Assembly (NCBI RefSeq): GCF_003234265.2
Contig: NZ_CP126256.1
Location: 62,001 to 126,000, forward strand
DNA: 64,000 nt
Direction of reading: 5' to 3'
Source: Curtobacterium sp. MCSS17_015
Lineage (GTDB): Bacteria > Actinomycetota > Actinomycetes > Actinomycetales > Microbacteriaceae
The notes under the pieces are model-generated. The model was not told the DNA's origin, searched no databases, and saw nothing but the letters and a program-made list of their open reading frames with translations. The translations under genes and the position numbers were made by a program. This document shows positions 49,708 to 59,299 of this stretch, in pieces (position 1 is the first letter of the stretch; each line of letters opens with the position of its first letter).

Positions 49708-49828
49708 GCCCGACGGCCCGGACCGGGCCGCCATCCCGACCGCCCGGCCGACCGGACCCACCCATCGGGTGCGATCCGGGCCTCCCGACCGACCCCGTCC
49801 ACTCCCACACCGAAGAGGACCCCTCCCG

Positions 49829-52800
49829 ATGACCGAACCCGCCCTCGTCTCCGCGCAGCCCTGGTCCCACCTGGAGGCCCGCGCCGGCCTCCTCGACCGC
49901 GCCACCGTCGCCTCCGCGACGATCGGCAGCACCCGCGTCCGGGTGGTCCCGGAGCCGCTGCAGACCGAGCGCGACGGCGCGCCCGTGCAGAGCGTCCGGC
50001 TGCTGTTCGACGACGAGCACGGAGCGGCGAGCGCCGGTGCCGCGACGCTCGCCGACGGCGGAGGGGACCGGGTCGTCGACCGCGCACCGGCGCCGGACGC
50101 CACCTCGGTCCGCCTGCTCGTCCGCAGAGTCGACGAGCCGACCGAGGTCACGCTCGCCCTCCCGGATGCCGGCGCCGAGACCGTGTCCTTCACGCTGCTG
50201 CCGCAACGCCCCTGGTCGGTGCACGTCGTACACCACTCGCACTTCGACTTCGGGTACACGGACCCGCAGACCACCGTGATCTCGTCGCAGCGGTCCTACC
50301 TGGACTCCGCCGTCGAGCTGGCCGCCGCGACGCGGGAGTGGCCGGAGGCCTCGCGGTTCCGCTGGAACGTCGAGGCGCTCTGGGCGTTCGCGGACTGGGA
50401 GCGGCACCGCCCGGCGGCGAAGGTCGAGGAGTTCGTGCGCCTCGTGCACGAGGGCTCGATCGGCCTCAGCGCGATGCCGTACAACCTGCACACCGACACG
50501 TGCTCGACCGAGGAGCTGCACGAACTGCTCCGCGAGGCGCGACGCATCCGCGACCGGTACGGCATCGACTTCACCACGGCGATGCAGACGGACGTCCCGG
50601 GTCAGGTGGCGGGCCTCCCGGACGCACTCCACGAGGTCGGCGTGCGGTACCTCGCCGTCGCCCACAACTGGGCCGGCCGGTCGATGCCGCACCAGAACGG
50701 CGCCCTCGACCTGCCACGGATGTTCCGGTGGCGCACGCCGGCGGGCAACTCGGTCGTCGTCTGGATGACCGACAGCCCGCACGGCCTCGCCTACATGGAG
50801 GGCCCGATGGTCGGGCTCACCGAGTCGTACGAGACCGCCGAGACCTACCTGCCTGCGTACCTGACGGCGCTCGCCACCCGCGGCTACCCGTTCCCGCCCG
50901 GGGTGTTCGGTGCGCACGGCGAAGAGGCCGAGGGACGCCGGGGCTACCCCTGGGACGTCCTGCACCTCCGCACGCAGGGCTTCATGGGCGACAACGGCCC
51001 GGCGCGCCTGCACCTGTCCGAGGTGGTCCGGCGCTGGAACGACACCTGGACGTCACCGACCCTGCGGGTGTCGACGAACGAGGACTTCTTCGCCGAGGCC
51101 GAAGCCCGGCACGGCGACGAGCTCACCACCGTCGAGGGCGACTGGGGCGACTGGTGGGTCGAGGGGGTCGGTTCGGCCGCGGTGCCGCTCGCGCTCACCC
51201 GGGAGGCGCAGGCCACGGTCAGCGACGCCCGCTCCTTCAGCCAGGCGGCGGCCTGGCTCGGCGGACAGGCGGTCCCGACGGAGCAGGCGGACTCCGACGC
51301 CGCCTACGACGCGATCTCGATGTTCAACGAGCACACCTGGGGTGCGAGCAACTCGTGGACCCACGGTGACGAGGGCTACGACTCGGGGGAGCGGCAGTGG
51401 CAGTGGAAGGTCGCCCAGGCCCTCACCGCCCACCAGCGTGGTCGCGACTTCGAGGAGCACGCCCTGGTCTACCTCGCCGACGCAGTGTCCGCCCCGGCGG
51501 ACGCCCTGACGTCGATCGTCGTCGCGAACGCCTCCGGCGCGCCCCGGACCGGCGTCGTGCGGTTCCTCCTCAAGGAGTCGTCCGTGCCCCTCGACACGCA
51601 CGTCGTCCTGCGCGACGGTCGGACCGGGCGCGAGCTCGCGGTCGTCGAGGAGGCGCAGTCGAACGTCCTGCACCGCGAGTCCGGCCGGTGGGTGAACGCG
51701 CAGCTGGTCGACGTGCCGGGGTTCGGCCACGTCCGGCTCGACGTGTTCCCCGGGCAGGTGGCCCCCGAGCCGCCCCGGCGGCACGACGGGCTCGACACCC
51801 CGCTGTCCGAGCTCTTCACGCTCGAGAACGAGTACCTCCGGGTCGCGGTCGACCCCGGCACGTCGACGATCCGGTCGATCGTGGAGCGGGCCACCGGGCG
51901 GGAGCTCGTCGAGCAGCGCACCCCGGCGGGCTTCAACGCGTACGTCTACGACGAGTACGGCTCCTCCGGCGCCGGCGTGAACCACCTCGCCAACAAGCTC
52001 TGGAGCTCCGAGCGCCTCGAACTGCTCGCCGCCCGGACCACGGGTGGGCCGTCGGTCCTCGTCGAGCGCGTGTCCGACGCGGTCGAGGAACGCCTGGTGT
52101 ACCGGTTCTCGGCGGCCGGCGTCGACGCCGTCACCGTCACCCTGCGCCTCCGGCACGGCGAGCCACGCCTGCGCATCGCGAACCGGCTCGAGAAGCCCGT
52201 CACCCGCACGAAGGAGAGCGCGTTCTTCGCGTTCCCGTTCGCCGCCGACGAGCCCGTCGTCCGCTACGAGGTCTCCGGCGGGGTGACCGGGGACGGCCTG
52301 CCGCACGTGCCCGGAGCACCGCAGCACATGCGCGCGATCCGCAACTGGGTCAGCCTGGAGGACCGTGGGGACGCCGTCGTCTGGGTCACGAAGGACGCAC
52401 CCCTCGTCCACCCCGGCACGATCTCGCTGCCCTACGCGCCGTTCCCGGCCAGCACGAGTCCGGCACGGTCGGCGACCGTCTACTCGTGGCTGCACAACAA
52501 CGTGTGGGACACGAACTTCCCGATCGAGCAGGGCTTCACGGCGACGTTCGAGTACGCCGTCGGGGTGCGTGCCGCCGCCGGCCAGCCCGTCGAGGCCGTC
52601 GCGCTCCAGACCTCGGCGGACCTGGTCCGGCCGTTGGCCACGGTGCCGGCGTCCGGGCGGGGCGAGGCCGGTGCAGCGTCGGCAGCGCTCCTGACCCTGG
52701 ACGACGAGCGCGTCCGGCTCGTGTCGGTGGTCGCCGGTGAGGAGGACGGGCAGTCGGTCGTCCGACTGCAGTCCGTGGTGGACGAGCCGGTCCCGCTCCG

Positions 52801-52975
52801 GGTGTCCGTCGGCGTCGCGCTCGCATCGGCCGAGCGCACCACCTACCTCGGTGACCCGGCGGACGGCGACGTCGAGCTCGGCGCGGACGGCAGCGTCCGG
52901 CTCACCCTCCGGCCGTACGAGGCCGCGGCCGTCCGGATCACGCGGGACCCGGCGCGGGAGACGGCGCGAGCCTGA
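49829..52975 (+). CDS. Glycoside hydrolase family 38 alpha-mannosidase
   Basis: 1048 residues, no signal peptide, so cytoplasmic. Zinc-site HHSHFDFGYTD (H135, H136, H138, D140), catalytic nucleophile D255 in AMQTDVPGQVAGLPDAL, and FNEHTWGASNSW further along are GH38 landmarks. C-terminal beta domains (from ~residue 560) are the usual mannosidase jelly-roll parts. Expected to trim alpha-mannosyl residues from imported oligosaccharides. ATG at 49829 lies 121 bp after the permease stop, a spacer that includes a CCGGGCCTCCCG element (49776-49787), so it may have reduced or separate transcription. Confidence 0.9.
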   Translation: MTEPALVSAQPWSHLEARAGLLDRATVASATIGSTRVRVVPEPLQTERDGAPVQSVRLLFDDEHGAASAGAATLADGGGDRVVDRAPAPDATSVRLLVRRVDEPTEVTLALPDAGAETVSFTLLPQRPWSVHVVHHSHFDFGYTDPQTTVISSQRSYLDSAVELAAATREWPEASRFRWNVEALWAFADWERHRPAAKVEEFVRLVHEGSIGLSAMPYNLHTDTCSTEELHELLREARRIRDRYGIDFTTAMQTDVPGQVAGLPDALHEVGVRYLAVAHNWAGRSMPHQNGALDLPRMFRWRTPAGNSVVVWMTDSPHGLAYMEGPMVGLTESYETAETYLPAYLTALATRGYPFPPGVFGAHGEEAEGRRGYPWDVLHLRTQGFMGDNGPARLHLSEVVRRWNDTWTSPTLRVSTNEDFFAEAEARHGDELTTVEGDWGDWWVEGVGSAAVPLALTREAQATVSDARSFSQAAAWLGGQAVPTEQADSDAAYDAISMFNEHTWGASNSWTHGDEGYDSGERQWQWKVAQALTAHQRGRDFEEHALVYLADAVSAPADALTSIVVANASGAPRTGVVRFLLKESSVPLDTHVVLRDGRTGRELAVVEEAQSNVLHRESGRWVNAQLVDVPGFGHVRLDVFPGQVAPEPPRRHDGLDTPLSELFTLENEYLRVAVDPGTSTIRSIVERATGRELVEQRTPAGFNAYVYDEYGSSGAGVNHLANKLWSSERLELLAARTTGGPSVLVERVSDAVEERLVYRFSAAGVDAVTVTLRLRHGEPRLRIANRLEKPVTRTKESAFFAFPFAADEPVVRYEVSGGVTGDGLPHVPGAPQHMRAIRNWVSLEDRGDAVVWVTKDAPLVHPGTISLPYAPFPASTSPARSATVYSWLHNNVWDTNFPIEQGFTATFEYAVGVRAAAGQPVEAVALQTSADLVRPLATVPASGRGEAGAASAALLTLDDERVRLVSVVAGEEDGQSVVRLQSVVDEPVPLRVSVGVALASAERTTYLGDPADGDVELGADGSVRLTLRPYEAAAVRITRDPARETARA

Positions 52976-53119: not shown

Positions 53120-54283
53120 TCAGCCGGCGTCGCGCGCCAGGACGGCCACCGTCACGTCGTCCTCGGCGTGCTCGGCCGCCCGCAGGCGCACGGTCTCGAG
53201 GAACGCGGCCGTGTCCGGCGCGCGCCGCAGCGTCCGGCCGATGTCCGTCAGGGTGTCGATCGTGCCGTCGCCCAGGTCGAGTGCCCCGTCACTCGTGACG
53301 ACGAGCGTGTCCCCGGGCTCGAGGACGAGCGAACCCGCCCGGAACGGCACACCCTCGGGGTGCAGCCCGAGCGGCAGGTCCCGCGACCGACGGATCTCCG
53401 AGGTGCCGTCGGCGCGCAGGTGCAGCACGAGCCCGTGTCCGGCGTCGACGAAGTCCACCCGGCCGGTGCTCGGGGTGAGGCGGGAGTGGAACAGCGTCGC
53501 GAAGGCCGAGGCACGGCTGAGGTCCTCGCTGATCCGCGGCTCGACGGCGCCGACGGCCGCGACCGGCAGCAGGTCCTCGTGCTGCCGGAGCGCGGCCCGG
53601 AGCCCGGCGGCGAGGAGCGCGGCGGGCTGCTCCTTGCCCATGATGTCGGCGAGCGTGAAGGTGACGGCGTCGTCACCTGCGGTCCAGTCGTGCACGTCAC
53701 CGCTGAGGTCGCCGTACGGCACGCTCGTCGCGGCGAGGCGGTAACCCGGGACGTGCAGGGGTGCCGGGGCGAGGGCCTCGACGACCTCGAGCAGCCGGTC
53801 GTGCTGGAGCCCCCTGGCCAGGGCCTGTTCGGTCCAGCGGCCGAGGTCGATCAGGGCCGCTTCGTCCTGGGGGCTGAACTCCCGCGGCACGACGTCCATC
53901 AGGCACAGGGTGCCGACGGCGAGGTCACCCGGCATCGTCAGCGGGACCCCGGCGTAGAACCGGATGCCGCGGCTCGTGACCCCGGGCAGGTCGGCGGTAC
54001 GCGGGTCGGCGGCGGTGTCCGGCACGACCGTCGGTCCCGGTCGCTGCACGGTGAGCTGGCAGAACGACCACTCGAGCGGCCCGGAGAGCGTCTCGCCCGG
54101 CACGTTCGGCGTCAGCGTGCGCAAGAGCGTGTCGTCGAGCAGGTTGACGTACGAGAACGGCACGTCGAAGAGGTCCCGCGCGATGCGGACGATGCGCTCG
54201 AGGCGTTCGGACGGGGCCGCGTCGACGATGTCGAGCGCCGCCACCAGTGCCGCCTGTGCGGACCGTGGACCGTCGGTGTCCAT
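53120..54283 (-). CDS. GAF-domain PP2C/SpoIIE-type serine phosphatase
   Basis: About 387 residues. N-terminal GAF sensor domain (LERIVRIARDLFDVPFSYVN, SFCQLTVQ, IRFYAGVPL, ~residues 20-165) and a C-terminal SpoIIE-like phosphatase domain (YGDLSGDVHDWT, FTLADIMGKEQPAALLAA, FVDAGHGLVLHL, DTLVVTSDGALD). The metal-binding Asp residues in GDVHDW, LADIMGKE and SDGALD are present. The motif is GDVHD rather than the usual GGDWYD. Probably controls an anti-anti-sigma factor or similar partner switch. ATG at 54283 follows GGGGGGAGG at short spacing; ATG at 54316 is the alternative. Confidence 0.87.
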   Translation of the reverse strand: MDTDGPRSAQAALVAALDIVDAAPSERLERIVRIARDLFDVPFSYVNLLDDTLLRTLTPNVPGETLSGPLEWSFCQLTVQRPGPTVVPDTAADPRTADLPGVTSRGIRFYAGVPLTMPGDLAVGTLCLMDVVPREFSPQDEAALIDLGRWTEQALARGLQHDRLLEVVEALAPAPLHVPGYRLAATSVPYGDLSGDVHDWTAGDDAVTFTLADIMGKEQPAALLAAGLRAALRQHEDLLPVAAVGAVEPRISEDLSRASAFATLFHSRLTPSTGRVDFVDAGHGLVLHLRADGTSEIRRSRDLPLGLHPEGVPFRAGSLVLEPGDTLVVTSDGALDLGDGTIDTLTDIGRTLRRAPDTAAFLETVRLRAAEHAEDDVTVAVLARDAG

Positions 54284-54340
54284 CTGCCTCCCCCCCGCGC
54301 AGTCGATCCCACGCATCCTGCCACGCCCGCCTGGGCGCGC

Positions 54341-54853: not shown

Positions 54854-54971
54854 CCCGCCAGCGTATCCACGGCGGAGACCCATCGGGCCGAGGATCATCC
54901 GTCCGGCGGACTCCTGGACGGCACACGGCGGCCTCCGAGGTGACGTCGGGGGAGCGGCATACGATCGGGTC

Positions 54972-57900
54972 ATGCCGCGCGCCCGCCTCCAGGACTGCTC
55001 CGACGACGCGCTCGCCCTCGTCCGGCGGTGGCTGGACGCGTCCCGCGGCGTGAAGCCCGACCCCGGCGCCGTCCGGCTGGCCGAGGTCCTGCGCGACGAG
55101 CGCGGACTCGACTTCGCGCGCGGCTTCGTCGACAAGGTGATCCGCCCCGACGACCCCCGCGTCGCGGCGCGCAACCTCGAGAAGGCCAGTCGCGACGTGC
55201 CGGACTTCCTCGCCTGGTACCTGCGCGGCGCGGTGACGGTCGGCGGCGGGTTCGCGACCATGGCGCCGTGGGCCGTCATCCCGTCCGCACGCCGGGTGCT
55301 GCGACGGCTCGCCGGACACCTCGTCGTCGACGCCCCTGCCGCCCGGCTCGGACCGGCGCTCGCCAAGGTCGCCGGTCGTGGCACCCGGCTCGACGTCGTC
55401 CCCCTCGGTCCCGCCGTGCTCGGTCCGGACGAGAGCGCCCGGCGGCTCCGGTGGATCACCGACCTGCTCGGCCGGCCGGACGTCCCAGCCGTGTCCTTCG
55501 CGGTGTCCGAGGTCCTGCCGCCGTCCTCGCCGTGGGCGCTCGGGGCTGCGACCGAGCAGGCGGTCGAGCGGCTCGTCCCGGTGTTCCGCGCCGCCGTCGC
55601 CGGGGGCAGCACGATCACGCTGCAGACCGGCGACCCGCGCGAGCTCGACCTGACCGCAGCCGTCTTCCGGACCCTGCTCGACCTCGACGAGTTCGCGCAC
55701 CTCACCGCCGGGATCACCCTGCCGGCCGCGCTCCCGGACAGCGTCGGGGCGCTCGCCTCGCTGACCGAGTGGGCGACGGCGCGACGCTTCCGCGGTGGCG
55801 CACCGATCCGGGTCCGGCTCGTCAAGGGAGCGCACGGTGCCACCGAGCTCGCCGACGCGCTCGTGCACGACCGCCCCCTGGCGACGTACGCCACCCGCCA
55901 GGCGACCGACACCGCGCTCCTCCGGCTGCTCGACGCCGCGCTGGCGCCCGAGCACACGGACGCGGTCCGGGTCGCGCTCGCCGGCCAGGACCTCTTCGCG
56001 ATCGCCGTCGCCCGCGTGCTCGCCGAGCGTCGCGGCGTGACCGACGCGCTCGAGGTCGAGATGCTCCTCGGGATGACCGGCACCGCCGCCGACGCGGTCC
56101 GCGCCGACGTCGGGACGCTCACCCTCGCCACCCCGGTCGTGCAGCCCGACGCGTTCGACGCCGCGATCCCGTACCTCGCCCGACGGCTGCGCGAGAGCGC
56201 GACCTCGACGGCGTTCTCGATCGGCACCGACGACGCCGTGGCCGAACGGGAGCGCGAGCGCGCCGTCGCCGCCGTCGCCGCGCTCGACGACCCGGCGCCG
56301 TCGACCCTCCGCACGCAGGACCGCCGGGTGCCCCTCGGCGCCCCCGCGATCACCGCGGTGCACCCACCGGCCGCGGACACCGACCCCACCGTCTCCGCGA
56401 ACCGGGAGTGGGCGGCGGACCTGCTCCGCCGGGTGCCGCGGTCGCAGCTCGGCACCGCGACCATCCGCGGCGCTCGGGTCACCGACCGCCCGCGACTCGA
56501 GCGCACCATCGCCCGCACGGCCCAGGCGGGCGTCAACTGGGGCCGGCAGGACCCGCAGGACCGCGCCGAACTGCTCGACCTCGTCGCCCACGAACTCGAG
56601 GTCCGACGCGCCGACCTCGTCGAGGTGGTGGTCGCCGAGACCGCGATGACCCTCACCGAGGCCGACCGGCAGGTCAGCGGTGCGATCGACGCGGCCCACC
56701 ACGCTGCCGACCGTGCCCGGCACCTCACCGACGTCCCCGGCGCCGTCTTCGTGCCGCCACGCCTGACCGTGGTCGTGTCGCCGTGGAACTCCCCGGTCGC
56801 GACCCCGGCCGACGGCGTGCTCTCGGCGCTCGCCGCGGGCAGCGGGGTCGTGCTGAAGCCGTCCCCCCTGGCCAGACGGTCCGGTGCGGTGCTCGCCGAC
56901 GTGCTCTGGGACGCCGGGGTCCCGCACTCGCTCCTGCAGCTCGTCGACCTCGACGTCAGCGAGCTCGGTCGCGACCTCGTCGCCCACCCCGCGGTGGACC
57001 GGGTGCTGCTCACCGGGTCCCCGGACACCGCACGGTCCTTCCGGTGGTGGCGGGCGGGTCTGCCGCTCATCGCCGACACCGGTGCCGTCAACGCGGCGGT
57101 GGTGACCCCGGCCGCCGACCTCGACCAGGCGGTCCGTGACGTCGTCACCTCGGCGTTCACCCGGTCCGGGCAGGCGAGCGAGGCGGTCTCGCTCGTCGTG
57201 CTGGTCGGTTCCGTCGGCGAGGACGACCGCTTCCGCCGCCAGCTCGCCGACGCCACCCGTGCCCTCCGGGTCGCCTGGCCGACGGACCCCGCCGCGCAGG
57301 TCGGTCCGCTCGTCGTCGAACCGACCGGCATCGCCCGGGCCGCGCTGACCGAGCTCGCCCCGGGGGAGTCCTGGCTGGTCGAGCCGACCGTCCTCGACGA
57401 GTCCGGTCGGCTCTGGTCGCCCGGCGTCCGCGTCGGGGTCCGCCCCGGCAGCGCCTTCGCGCAGACCGCCGCGGCCGTCCCCGTGCTCGGGGTCGTGCAC
57501 GTCGAGACGCTCGACCAGGCGATCGCGATCCAGAACGGCGGCGAGCACGGCCTGGTGGAGGCCCTGCACACGCTCGACGTCGACGAGGTCGCCGCGTGGA
57601 CCGACCGCGTCACCGCCGGCACCCTCGTCGTGAACCGTCCGACGACGGACCTGGTCGTCGGACGTCAGCCCTCCGGCGGCCGGGGACGGGCCGCGGTCGG
57701 TGCCGGCGCGAAGCGCGGTGGCCCGGAGTCCGTCGCCGTGCTCGGCCACTGGGCGCCCGTGCCCCGCACGGTCCACAAGAGCATCCAGCTGCAGGGGCTG
57801 CCGCCGCGCGTGACCGCCCTCATCGAGGCGTCCCGGAGCGGTCTGTCCTTCGAGGAGTTCGACCAGGTCCGCGCCGGTGCCACGAGCGACGCCGCGGCAC

Positions 57901-58508
57901 GCGAGACCCGGTTCGGCAGGTCCCGCGACACCGCCGACCTCCGCGTCGAACGGAACGTGCTCCGGTACCGGCCGCAGTCCGTGGTCGTCCGGCAGTCGGA
58001 GGACGTCGGCACCGGGGACCTGGTCCGGGTGCTGGCCGCTGCGACCGCCGCCCGGGCGCACGTCCTGCTCAGCACGGCCCGCGCGCTCCCGGGCCCGCTC
58101 ACCCAGCTGCTCGCCGGGCGTCGCGCACCCCTCGACGTGGTCGACCACCTGGTCGAGACGGACGAGGAGTTCCTGGCCCGGGCAGCGTCCGGCGCCCTCC
58201 TCCGCGAGGACTGGTCGGGCGGCTCGGACGAACCGCAGGACGCCATCGACATCGTGCTGTCGCAGGGCTTCGAGCCGCGGCCGCACACCGCGTTCGCCGG
58301 CCCGGGCTCGCGGATCCGGTTGCTGGGCGGGGACCCCCTCGCGCTCGAGGAGGCGCTCGGTGCCGGCATCGACACGGCGATCCACGACGCGCCGGTGGTC
58401 GAGGCCGGCGTCGTCGAGATGGCGCACTTCCTCCGCGAGCAGACGGTCTCCGTCACGGCGCACCGGCACGGCGACCTCGACCCGGAGTTCACGCGGCTGC
58501 GTCTCTGA
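54972..58508 (+). CDS. PutA-like protein, likely catalytically inactive (proline dehydrogenase + aldehyde dehydrogenase fold)
   Basis: 1178 residues, the normal PutA length, in one intact frame. The N-terminal proline-dehydrogenase region aligns with IRVRLVKGAHGATELADAL, EVEMLLGMTG and TPVVQPDAFDAAIPYLARRL, but residues I know as catalytic or FAD-binding differ: the KVS lysine region is SFAVSE (Ala at ~177), the LDMEEY region is LQTGDPRE, VLQAY is TLPAA, and GHNLFD is GQDLFA. The aldehyde dehydrogenase region has VVSPWNSPVATPADGV and VVLKPSP, but the GQKCS cysteine is Ser 736 (GQASEA), the AETSGKNA glutamate is Asp 702 (ADTGAVNA), and EFFGPVLG is TAAAVPVLG. So proline oxidation is unlikely. 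Role unknown; binding, regulatory or new chemistry are all open. Divergent MarR neighbour. Confidence 0.85.
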   Translation: MPRARLQDCSDDALALVRRWLDASRGVKPDPGAVRLAEVLRDERGLDFARGFVDKVIRPDDPRVAARNLEKASRDVPDFLAWYLRGAVTVGGGFATMAPWAVIPSARRVLRRLAGHLVVDAPAARLGPALAKVAGRGTRLDVVPLGPAVLGPDESARRLRWITDLLGRPDVPAVSFAVSEVLPPSSPWALGAATEQAVERLVPVFRAAVAGGSTITLQTGDPRELDLTAAVFRTLLDLDEFAHLTAGITLPAALPDSVGALASLTEWATARRFRGGAPIRVRLVKGAHGATELADALVHDRPLATYATRQATDTALLRLLDAALAPEHTDAVRVALAGQDLFAIAVARVLAERRGVTDALEVEMLLGMTGTAADAVRADVGTLTLATPVVQPDAFDAAIPYLARRLRESATSTAFSIGTDDAVAERERERAVAAVAALDDPAPSTLRTQDRRVPLGAPAITAVHPPAADTDPTVSANREWAADLLRRVPRSQLGTATIRGARVTDRPRLERTIARTAQAGVNWGRQDPQDRAELLDLVAHELEVRRADLVEVVVAETAMTLTEADRQVSGAIDAAHHAADRARHLTDVPGAVFVPPRLTVVVSPWNSPVATPADGVLSALAAGSGVVLKPSPLARRSGAVLADVLWDAGVPHSLLQLVDLDVSELGRDLVAHPAVDRVLLTGSPDTARSFRWWRAGLPLIADTGAVNAAVVTPAADLDQAVRDVVTSAFTRSGQASEAVSLVVLVGSVGEDDRFRRQLADATRALRVAWPTDPAAQVGPLVVEPTGIARAALTELAPGESWLVEPTVLDESGRLWSPGVRVGVRPGSAFAQTAAAVPVLGVVHVETLDQAIAIQNGGEHGLVEALHTLDVDEVAAWTDRVTAGTLVVNRPTTDLVVGRQPSGGRGRAAVGAGAKRGGPESVAVLGHWAPVPRTVHKSIQLQGLPPRVTALIEASRSGLSFEEFDQVRAGATSDAAARETRFGRSRDTADLRVERNVLRYRPQSVVVRQSEDVGTGDLVRVLAAATAARAHVLLSTARALPGPLTQLLAGRRAPLDVVDHLVETDEEFLARAASGALLREDWSGGSDEPQDAIDIVLSQGFEPRPHTAFAGPGSRIRLLGGDPLALEEALGAGIDTAIHDAPVVEAGVVEMAHFLREQTVSVTAHRHGDLDPEFTRLRL

Positions 58509-58679
58509 GTGCACGTGGTGCACCGGTCAGGAGGCCCTGCCCGCGTCCGGTGTGCGGCCTGCGTGCCCCGGGCCTCCCGTCCGCACGCCCCGGCACGCCT
58601 CCCGTCGCGCCCCGTCCGGTCAGCGCAGACCTGGGCCGTGCCCGTGAGGCGGACGCGCACCCGGCGTAACGTTCGGACC

Positions 58680-58892
58680 ATGACTGCAGGAGAGCGTGAC
58701 AACGGGGTCCAGACCGAGCCGATCATGGACGGTGCGACCGACGCGACGAACGAGGACAAGCTGCACGGACTCGTGGAGCAGGTCCAGCACGACCACGGTG
58801 ACGAGGGTGCCGGTGTCATGGCCGACCACCTCCGCGACCGTCTCGACGAGACCGGTGTCGAGGCCGATGACCCCGCATCCGAGGTCGAGTAG
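58680..58892 (+). CDS. Small acidic hypothetical protein
   Basis: 70 residues, begins MTAGERDNGVQTEPIMDG. Strongly acidic and hydrophilic, with HGLVEQVQHDHGDEGAGVMA and LRDRLDETGVEAD, probably largely helical. No signal or membrane part. Family not recognised; similar short acidic proteins are common in actinobacteria. Own promoter region of ~170 bp upstream (58509-58679, which includes a CCGGGCCTCCCG element at 58568) and a terminator downstream. Confidence 0.7.
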   Translation: MTAGERDNGVQTEPIMDGATDATNEDKLHGLVEQVQHDHGDEGAGVMADHLRDRLDETGVEADDPASEVE

Positions 58893-58904
58893 CGGCACGC
58901 TGCC

Positions 58905-58942
58905 GGACGCCCCCGCCGACCGTCAGATCCGCGGGGGCGTCC
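58905..58942. terminator. Terminator after the small acidic protein
   Basis: GGACGCCCCCGC (58905-58916) pairs with GCGGGGGCGTCC (58931-58942), a 12-bp stem with a 14-nt loop, between convergent genes. Confidence 0.8.
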
Positions 58943-58957
58943 TCGTGTGCGTGGGGC

Positions 58958-59299
58958 TCAGCGTTCCCGGCCGCGGCCCACGAGCGCGATCTCGAGCACG
59001 GTGAGCAGTGCCGCGATCCAGAGCTGGCGGACGGCGAAGCGGCGGGACTGCCGGTCGAGGAGTGCCAGCGGCACCATCGTCGCGCCGTGCGTGGCGTCGA
59101 CCAGTGCGCTGACGGTGTGCGCGTCGGGTGACCCCGCCCGGAGCAGGAGGCCGGCCTGCGTGAGCTGCCGGACCCCGAGGACGCGACCGAGGACCGCCGG
59201 GCGGCCGAGGGCGCGACGGGACCCGAGCAGGTGCACGACGCCGATGCCGACACGGAGCAGCTCGACGACCCGGACCCGGTCCTGCCGTGCGCCGCTCAT
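58958..59299 (-). CDS. Small membrane-associated hypothetical protein
   Basis: 113 residues, starts MSGARQDRVRVVELLRVG. Two or three hydrophobic stretches (VLGRVLGVRQLTQAGLLL; ATMVPLALL; LWIAALLTVLEIALVG) suggest a membrane protein. The ATG overlaps the stop of the SDR gene by 4 bp (59296-59299), so the pair is coupled. Family not recognised with confidence. Confidence 0.7.
   Translation of the reverse strand: MSGARQDRVRVVELLRVGIGVVHLLGSRRALGRPAVLGRVLGVRQLTQAGLLLRAGSPDAHTVSALVDATHGATMVPLALLDRQSRRFAVRQLWIAALLTVLEIALVGRGRER

Follow-up and report, generated by a model that had tools for sequence, protein, structure and literature searches.

The solved structure closest to the protein described here is that of Corynebacterium freiburgense PutA (5UX5), reportedly studied by Korasick et al. 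in 2017, and we take both proteins to belong to the class 3B, or type B, PutAs. Such proteins carry a proline dehydrogenase (PRODH) half and an aldehyde dehydrogenase (ALDH) half in one chain. The C-terminal domain (CTD) of type B PutA has been linked to coupling of the two halves, to channelling and to redox-dependent membrane association (PMC5293562). In the PRODH active site, Lys329 (Escherichia coli numbering) serves as the base and Arg555 and Arg556 contact the carboxylate, with roles also given for Tyr540, Tyr552 and Leu513 in PMC10651016; the roles of the ALDH oxyanion Asn and catalytic Cys are set out in PMC11596857. Here, we compare these enzymes with PutA2, a full-length homologue encoded in a 64,000-nucleotide stretch of Curtobacterium sp. 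MCSS17_015 (contig NZ_CP126256.1, positions 62,001 to 126,000; hereafter the window) from a 3.32 Mb genome, G000. PutA2 has lost catalytic residues in both halves, and it is very probably a recurrently formed pseudoenzyme that selection keeps for a non-catalytic job.

A predicted PutA fold without its catalytic residues

Translation of positions 54972-58508 on the forward strand gives a single open frame of 1178 aa. Pfam recognises Pro_dh (residues 174-415, E 1.1e-28) and Aldedh (residues 506-916, E 4.4e-66), and a sequence search against solved structures places 5UX5 at the top (E 2.4e-191). An AlphaFold2 model built with 40 homologues as input (mean pLDDT 89, pTM 0.89) also matches 5UX5 best in the PDB, with a target-normalised TM of 0.92 at 36 percent identity. 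PutA2 is a single chain that combines a PRODH and an ALDH domain and is predicted to have the PutA fold, and it lacks Lys329 and other conserved PRODH active-site residues as well as the ALDH catalytic Cys and general-base Glu, which are Ser and Asp. It reaches 199.5 bits against an NCBIfam equivalog cut-off of 747 (PRK11904), a shortfall for which there is no PutA1 control value.

Residues were numbered by alignment to E. coli K-12 PutA, and 17 key residues were scored, 11 in PRODH and 6 in ALDH. Besides those introduced above, the key residues include the ALDH general-base Glu and the E-x-F cofactor contact. The PRODH replacements (E. coli to window) are Lys329 to Ala177, Asp370 to Gln218, Gln404 to Pro251, Tyr406 to Ala253, His487 to Gln339 and Tyr540 to Ala386, and the ALDH replacements are Glu883 to Asp702, Cys917 to Ser736, Glu1018 to Ala833 and Phe1020 to Ala835. 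Arg431, Lys434, Leu513, Tyr552, Arg555, Arg556 and Glu559 are kept in the PRODH half, and the oxyanion Asn779 and Lys802 in the ALDH half. From these residues, PutA2 is predicted to be unable to oxidise proline or glutamate semialdehyde. An earlier sequence-only reading had noted the ALDH changes (Cys to Ser, Glu to Asp, EFFGPV contact gone), and the alignment bears them out. That reading had also named losses of a PRODH Lys, acidic residue, Tyr and His; these are found as well, but the His loss is recent, since G001, G036 and G045, whose orthologues are the three closest, retain the His487 equivalent.

The same genome encodes a second copy, PutA1 (G000:C1:1206863-1210249), homologous to PutA2 over most of its length at 48 percent identity. 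All 17 key residues are intact in it, which answers the question raised by the sequence-only reading of whether a canonical PutA is present. Every one of the 66 genus genomes has matches to both PutA1 and PutA2. A full-length PutA1 is present in 63; the copies of G010 (an 835-aa fragment), G045 (divided between two contigs) and G065 (partial) were left unscored, and PutA2 is eroded in the latter two genomes. Since all 17 residues are intact in 63/63 full-length PutA1 and in 32/32 other aligned PutAs of the family, the losses in PutA2 are not chance.

Key sites were also compared with other invariant sites. In 37 PutA2 orthologues chosen by PRODH Lys loss only, the six ALDH key sites have a mean retention of 0.34, and the 122 remaining invariant sites of that half have 0.81 (p 5e-4 for the difference). 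In 34 orthologues chosen by ALDH Cys loss, the 11 PRODH key sites are retained at 0.52 against 0.70 for 102 others, a difference that is not significant (p 0.059); Arg431, Arg555 and Arg556 are largely kept among these 11. A comparison over 335 sites gave an active-site retention of 0.43 against 0.81 in copies with at least 6 sites lost, and is partly circular because these copies were picked by active-site loss.

The former ALDH Cys position (residue 736) is Ser, Ala, Thr or Gly across the window's eight-species clade, and elsewhere it can be Arg, Pro or Val, so no replacement nucleophile is conserved. Several flavin-site residues are lost too, and their replacements differ between lineages; at residue 177, orthologues carry Ala, Ser, Asp, Thr, Arg or Gly. 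This variability makes it very unlikely that the eroded protein catalyses another reaction with new residues, an idea that fits its predicted intact fold and the retention across genus PutA2 of the carboxylate contacts Arg555 (59/63) and Arg556 (63/63) and of Arg431 (63/63). We did not use the retained arginines as proof of ligand binding, because many other barrel sites are retained too.

Graded and recurrent erosion in the genus

Of the 66 genomes, 63 encode a full-length PutA2 of 1178-1192 aa. In the remaining three, it is split at a contig end (G049), carries one frameshift in a 790-contig draft (G022) or is broken in an assembly that is 65 percent complete and in which PutA1 is broken too (G010). 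The sequence-only reading described an intact gene of normal length and ordinary composition and relied on conserved orthologues, and all of this agrees with the open frame, with the presence of the gene throughout the genus and with a GC content at third codon positions (GC3) of 0.936, against 0.938 in PutA1.

All 17 key residues survive in 15 of the 63 full-length copies, and the others lose 1 to 12, so erosion as a fixed trait of the orthologue group was rejected. The PRODH Lys is gone from 37 copies, the ALDH Cys from 34 and Cys or Glu from 39, with Lys plus at least one of Cys and Glu missing in 35. Loss in both domains, as first proposed, stands for the window protein but is not general, since orthologues range from zero to nearly complete loss. 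Two genomes (G007, G016) have lost the ALDH Glu and kept the PRODH Lys, and two (G061, G034) have lost the Lys and kept the ALDH Cys and Glu, which indicates that either half can go first.

Losses were counted as minimum independent events, assuming no regain, on a PutA2 tree built without the 17 key columns. This tree requires 6 losses of the PRODH Lys, 4 of the ALDH Cys and 13 of the ALDH Glu (11 once weak nodes are collapsed), and the PutA1 tree requires 11, 11 and 15 (9, 9 and 13 with weak nodes collapsed). The approximately unbiased (AU) test on whole-gene protein data rejects one origin for both Lys (p 5.7e-5) and Cys (p 2.1e-6), as do third positions outside the barrel, and a single origin of loss was rejected on these grounds. 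The nearest outgroup copies are intact (6/6 read in the genus g5, plus P0066, P0068 and P0070), which indicates that the PutA2 ancestor was catalytic.

Selection after loss

Codon-model omega (dN/dS) is 0.051, 0.051, 0.036 and 0.050 in the eroded PutA2 clades A to D (8, 7, 4 and 4 genomes), of which clade A is the window's. PutA1 from the species of these clades (7, 6, 4 and 4 genomes) gives 0.031, 0.030, 0.033 and 0.047, and five neighbouring genes span 0.005-0.064, a range that holds all four eroded-clade values. Pairwise fits for 8 pairs of eroded copies all reject an omega of 1 (2dlnL 240 to 873), and differences between G000 and G036 by codon position are 0.059/0.043/0.246. Under neutrality, clade A would be expected to have gathered about 126 nonsense mutations, an estimate based on observed synonymous change and assumed mutation weights, and all 8 frames are open. 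PutA2 is constrained despite its missing active sites.

Pseudogene decay was rejected on frame integrity, dN/dS, codon positions and the expected nonsense mutations. PutA2 shows neither a broken frame nor dN/dS near 1; it lacks the catalytic residues of its family, keeps the fold by prediction and has been kept by selection after the loss, which is the pattern of a pseudoenzyme. The sequence-only reading, which denied that the gene is a decaying pseudogene and called for dN/dS across orthologues, is upheld by purifying values of 0.036-0.051 in the four eroded clades, similar to those of neighbouring genes and set against 0.030-0.047 in PutA1. Its proposal of selection for a non-catalytic role is well supported, given the full-length orthologues, the low dN/dS and the unchanged GC3.

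A slower decay, in which PutA2 is redundant and disappearing and its frame stays open merely because stops are rare in GC-rich DNA, is very unlikely. Eroded branches are indeed longer on the PutA2 tree, the barrel in clades A and B has an omega 7 to 9 times as high as in PutA1, the frame is shifted in the draft G022 and broken in the low-quality G010, and PutA2 of the genus g32 has 1.5 to 2.7 times the omega of PutA1. Such a decay is nevertheless contradicted by the rejection of neutrality and the missing nonsense mutations described above, by omega values of 0.036-0.080 within eroded clades, by the steady GC3, and by the retention of the gene in 66/66 genomes together with its promoter element and a neighbouring MarR-family gene.

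A more specific form of the favoured explanation is that eroded PutA2 acts as a regulatory subunit, in mixed oligomers with PutA1 or in competition with it, which is possible and on balance doubtful. PutA1 is intact wherever it can be scored, its omega is 0.030-0.033 in the eroded clades A-C against 0.053 in species with an intact PutA2, and PMC10211241 lists an inactive ALDH2 variant that inhibits the active tetramer. Against it stand a PutA1 omega of 0.047 in the eroded clade D, a PutA1/PutA2 identity of only about 48 percent and an unclean baseline from the control genes, whose omega in the intact set varies between 0.6 and 3.8 times the value in clade A or B. The intact PutA2 set itself has an omega of 0.035. 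As a side observation, the contrast between 0.053 where PutA2 is intact and 0.030-0.033 (clades A-C) or 0.047 (D) is a weak hint that PutA1 is less constrained beside an intact PutA2, as if the load were shared; the control genes are too variable to settle this.

Where constraint lies along PutA2

Constraint is uneven along the chain. The barrel is far more relaxed in PutA2 than in PutA1 (omega 0.081 against 0.011 in clade A, 0.073 against 0.008 in clade B), and in clade A only the linker, at 0.082, is as relaxed as the barrel. The NAD-binding part (501-715) is strongly constrained in that clade (0.027). The CTD shows the opposite pattern to the barrel, with 0.033 in PutA2 against 0.068 in PutA1 in clade A and 0.031 against 0.061 in clade B, and in 8/8 species sets, including intact PutA2 and three g32 sets, PutA2 has the lower CTD omega of the two. 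A shift of constraint from barrel to CTD was rejected as a general rule, because only the CTD part holds in g32.

With the CTD as its most consistently constrained part, PutA2 is probably a binding or regulatory scaffold. As the likeliest mechanism, which we suggest tentatively, it may act by binding: its ALDH and CTD surfaces would serve to pair with PutA1 or some other partner, or to modulate it, or else to hold a ligand or the membrane.

Eroded copies in other genera

Further genera of the family carry comparable pairs. In g32, which groups with the intact P0066 (labelled Frigoribacterium sp. 2-23), 16/16 genomes have two PutA matches. The PutA1-type copy is intact in 16/16, and the MarR-linked PutA2 is eroded in 14/14 read, with 7 to 13 of the 17 sites lost; the second copies of G330 and G360 lie outside these 14. 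The eroded g32 proteins are 1175-1232 aa long and sit beside MarR; 6 of them carry Thr and 8 carry Asp at residue 216.

Erosion in g45 affects one paralogue in 3/6 genomes, with 3, 6 and 6 sites lost, and the second paralogue is intact in 6/6. In g70, one of the two two-copy genomes read has an eroded copy: one G191 copy has lost 7 sites beside an intact partner, both G134 copies are intact, and the second copies of G276 and G311 are unread. The eroded G191 protein (L315, L328) has Leu in place of Arg556, a residue that genus PutA2 keep in 63/63. For g5, two copies were read in each of five genomes, and all of these are intact (the second copy of G319 is unread). An eroded PutA always has an intact partner wherever both copies can be scored, which leaves aside G045 and G065.

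A probable parallel path through residues 216 and 141

At residue 216 (E. coli Asn368), 63/63 PutA1 and 33/34 other family PutAs aligned have Asn; the exception, P0011, groups with genus PutA2. Of the 37 orthologues without the PRODH Lys, 36 have Thr there and 1 has Ser. Two more, G031 and G032, have Thr and keep the Lys, having lost Tyr406 and His487, and the remaining 24 have Asn (23) or Asp (1). Residue 141 is Asp in 35 of the 39 orthologues with a changed residue 216, Glu in 2, Ser in G034 and Asn in G009, and it is Asn in the other 24. The change to Thr at 216 is also seen in g32, g45 and g70. Several further sites (704, 291, 222 and 1158) carry residues common to several eroded lineages and absent from active PutAs; in a convergent-substitution scan, one example is Ser704 to Gly.

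Third positions over residues 134-230 place an intact species as the nearest relative of G031, G064, G034, G009 and G051, so the 141 and 216 changes most likely arose in place in these five recent lineages. For three deep lineages (G024, G000 and G050), the nearest relative in this region is another eroded copy. Spread of one eroded PRODH allele of single origin between species by recombination would account for Asn216Thr and Asn141Asp in nearly all Lys-less copies, and a single origin survives the test on PRODH third positions (p 0.12). The intact synonymous relatives of those five lineages, the differing replacements at residue 177 and the return of Thr at 216 in g32, g45 and g70 make this explanation very unlikely indeed.

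The 216 and 141 changes may compensate for an empty flavin barrel. A wider proposal, which we regard as about as likely to fail as to hold and perhaps slightly more so, is a replicated path from enzyme to pseudoenzyme in at least 4 genera, in which Asn368 changes to Thr or Asp, often with Asn to Asp on a neighbouring strand, plausibly stabilising a flavin-free barrel, and which is driven by an older CTD-centred second function also present in active orthologues.

The MarR neighbour and surroundings

A divergent MarR-family gene has a single match in 63/66 genus genomes and adjoins PutA2 there; in G049 it lies on the contig bearing the first part of PutA2. It also flanks intact PutA in g5 (6/6 loci) and at several other family loci, and it was not found in the short flanks of any of 65 PutA1 loci. 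In the region between the two genes, TACGATC (54960-54966), directly before the ATG, is present in 60/63 aligned intergenic regions, and AGCGTA on the MarR side in 58/63. These conserved elements suggest that the PutA2 and MarR transcripts may be leaderless, and they support the start at 54972. Feature positions are collected in Table 1.

Table 1. Features of the PutA2 locus, in window positions; domain borders are approximate and were set from Pfam and the model.
Feature	Position	Strand	Remark
PutA2, full-length PutA homologue with both active sites lost	54972..58508	+	1178 aa + stop
PRODH barrel, residues ~134-415	55371..56216	+	strongly relaxed in window's clade
ALDH half, residues ~501-905	56472..57686	+	NAD-binding part 501-715
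CTD, residues ~906-1178	57687..58505	+	
Residue 141, Asp	55392..55394	+	Asn in aligned active family PutAs
Residue 177, Ala at place of PRODH base Lys329	55500..55502	+	
Residue 216, Thr (E. coli Asn368)	55617..55619	+	Asn in active PutAs
Residue 702, Asp at place of general-base Glu	57075..57077	+	
Residue 736, Ser at place of catalytic Cys	57177..57179	+	
Residues 833-835, lost E-x-F cofactor contact	57468..57476	+	
Divergent MarR-family regulator gene, 170 aa	54341..54853	-	~120 bases upstream of PutA2
Intergenic region common to MarR and PutA2	54854..54971	.	

In G041 (L144), MarR lies about 490 bases from PutA2 instead of about 120, so the promoter interval is longer there. A gene for a GAF and SpoIIE-type phosphatase protein (53120-54316, reverse strand) adjoins the MarR gene and appears in the fetched flanks of only the window's eight-species clade (8/66 loci). 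Further upstream, a family 38 glycoside hydrolase (alpha-mannosidase-like) gene (49769-52975, forward strand) has no match in the fetched flanks of other genus loci. Downstream, positions 58509-59295, between PutA2 and an SDR gene, gave no Pfam match in the two frames tested, and the length of this interval varies by kilobases among species.

A proposed route from enzyme to scaffold

These observations can be joined into one scenario. The MarR-linked PutA2 would have been active in the ancestor; with PutA1 carrying proline catabolism, catalysis by PutA2 may have become dispensable and then been lost repeatedly. The scaffold, chiefly the CTD, would have stayed under selection, with the MarR neighbour kept in nearly all genomes.

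Several points weigh against this scenario. Clades A and B have a barrel more relaxed than the NAD-binding part, but two of the three g32 sets show the opposite order, with the NAD-binding part most relaxed (0.097, 0.068) and the barrel at 0.049 and 0.022. Whole-gene omega in g32 is 0.060, 0.041 and 0.080 for PutA2 against 0.022, 0.027 and 0.048 for PutA1. Absolute omega values (GY94 model, GC3 0.94) may be biased low, and comparisons are safer. The frameshift in G022 may be real, and scoring of eroded genes was confined to the 63 full-length PutA2, with the three fragmented genes unscored. The test in which barrel third positions alone fail to reject one origin covers 326 sites. No MarR match (E 1e-25) was found in G002, G042 and G043, yet they keep an eroded PutA2, and the eroded g45 and g70 copies fall outside the PutA2 clade and have no MarR in their short flanks.

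Comparison with known systems

Close homologues of PutA2 are named in their sources as proline dehydrogenase family protein or bifunctional proline dehydrogenase/L-glutamate gamma-semialdehyde dehydrogenase, and eroded homologues such as P0013 and P0063 bear such enzyme names too; automatic annotation can mislabel eroded PutA genes as enzymes. The titles and opening abstract text of the papers listed, covering few subscription papers, hold no report of an inactive PutA or of a Curtobacterium PutA. Pseudoenzymes are mostly encountered in their final state, and here sister species carry a single orthologue in active, half-lost or fully lost form. These graded forms and replicate losses make it directly testable what a pseudoenzyme has to retain, and whether the second function predates the loss. 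Should the CTD hold the retained function, this would suggest that PutAs of this class have a non-catalytic role that has gone unrecognised.

Within its own genome, PutA2 differs from PutA1, which has the 17 residues intact and no MarR in its short flanks. C. freiburgense PutA (5UX5) shares the domain order, the predicted fold and the CTD with the window protein, which lacks the PRODH Lys, several flavin-site residues and the ALDH Cys and Glu. The trifunctional PutA of E. coli resembles PutA2 in having a non-catalytic role, that of an autogenous transcriptional repressor, as described in PMC5293562; it differs in a feature for which Pfam gives no match in the window protein. ALDH16A1 keeps the ALDH fold without the catalytic triad and is called a pseudoenzyme in PMC10650815, but it has no proline dehydrogenase half. 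Unlike ALDH16A1, PutA2 has lost two active sites, several times and in bacteria, with intact orthologues in sister species.

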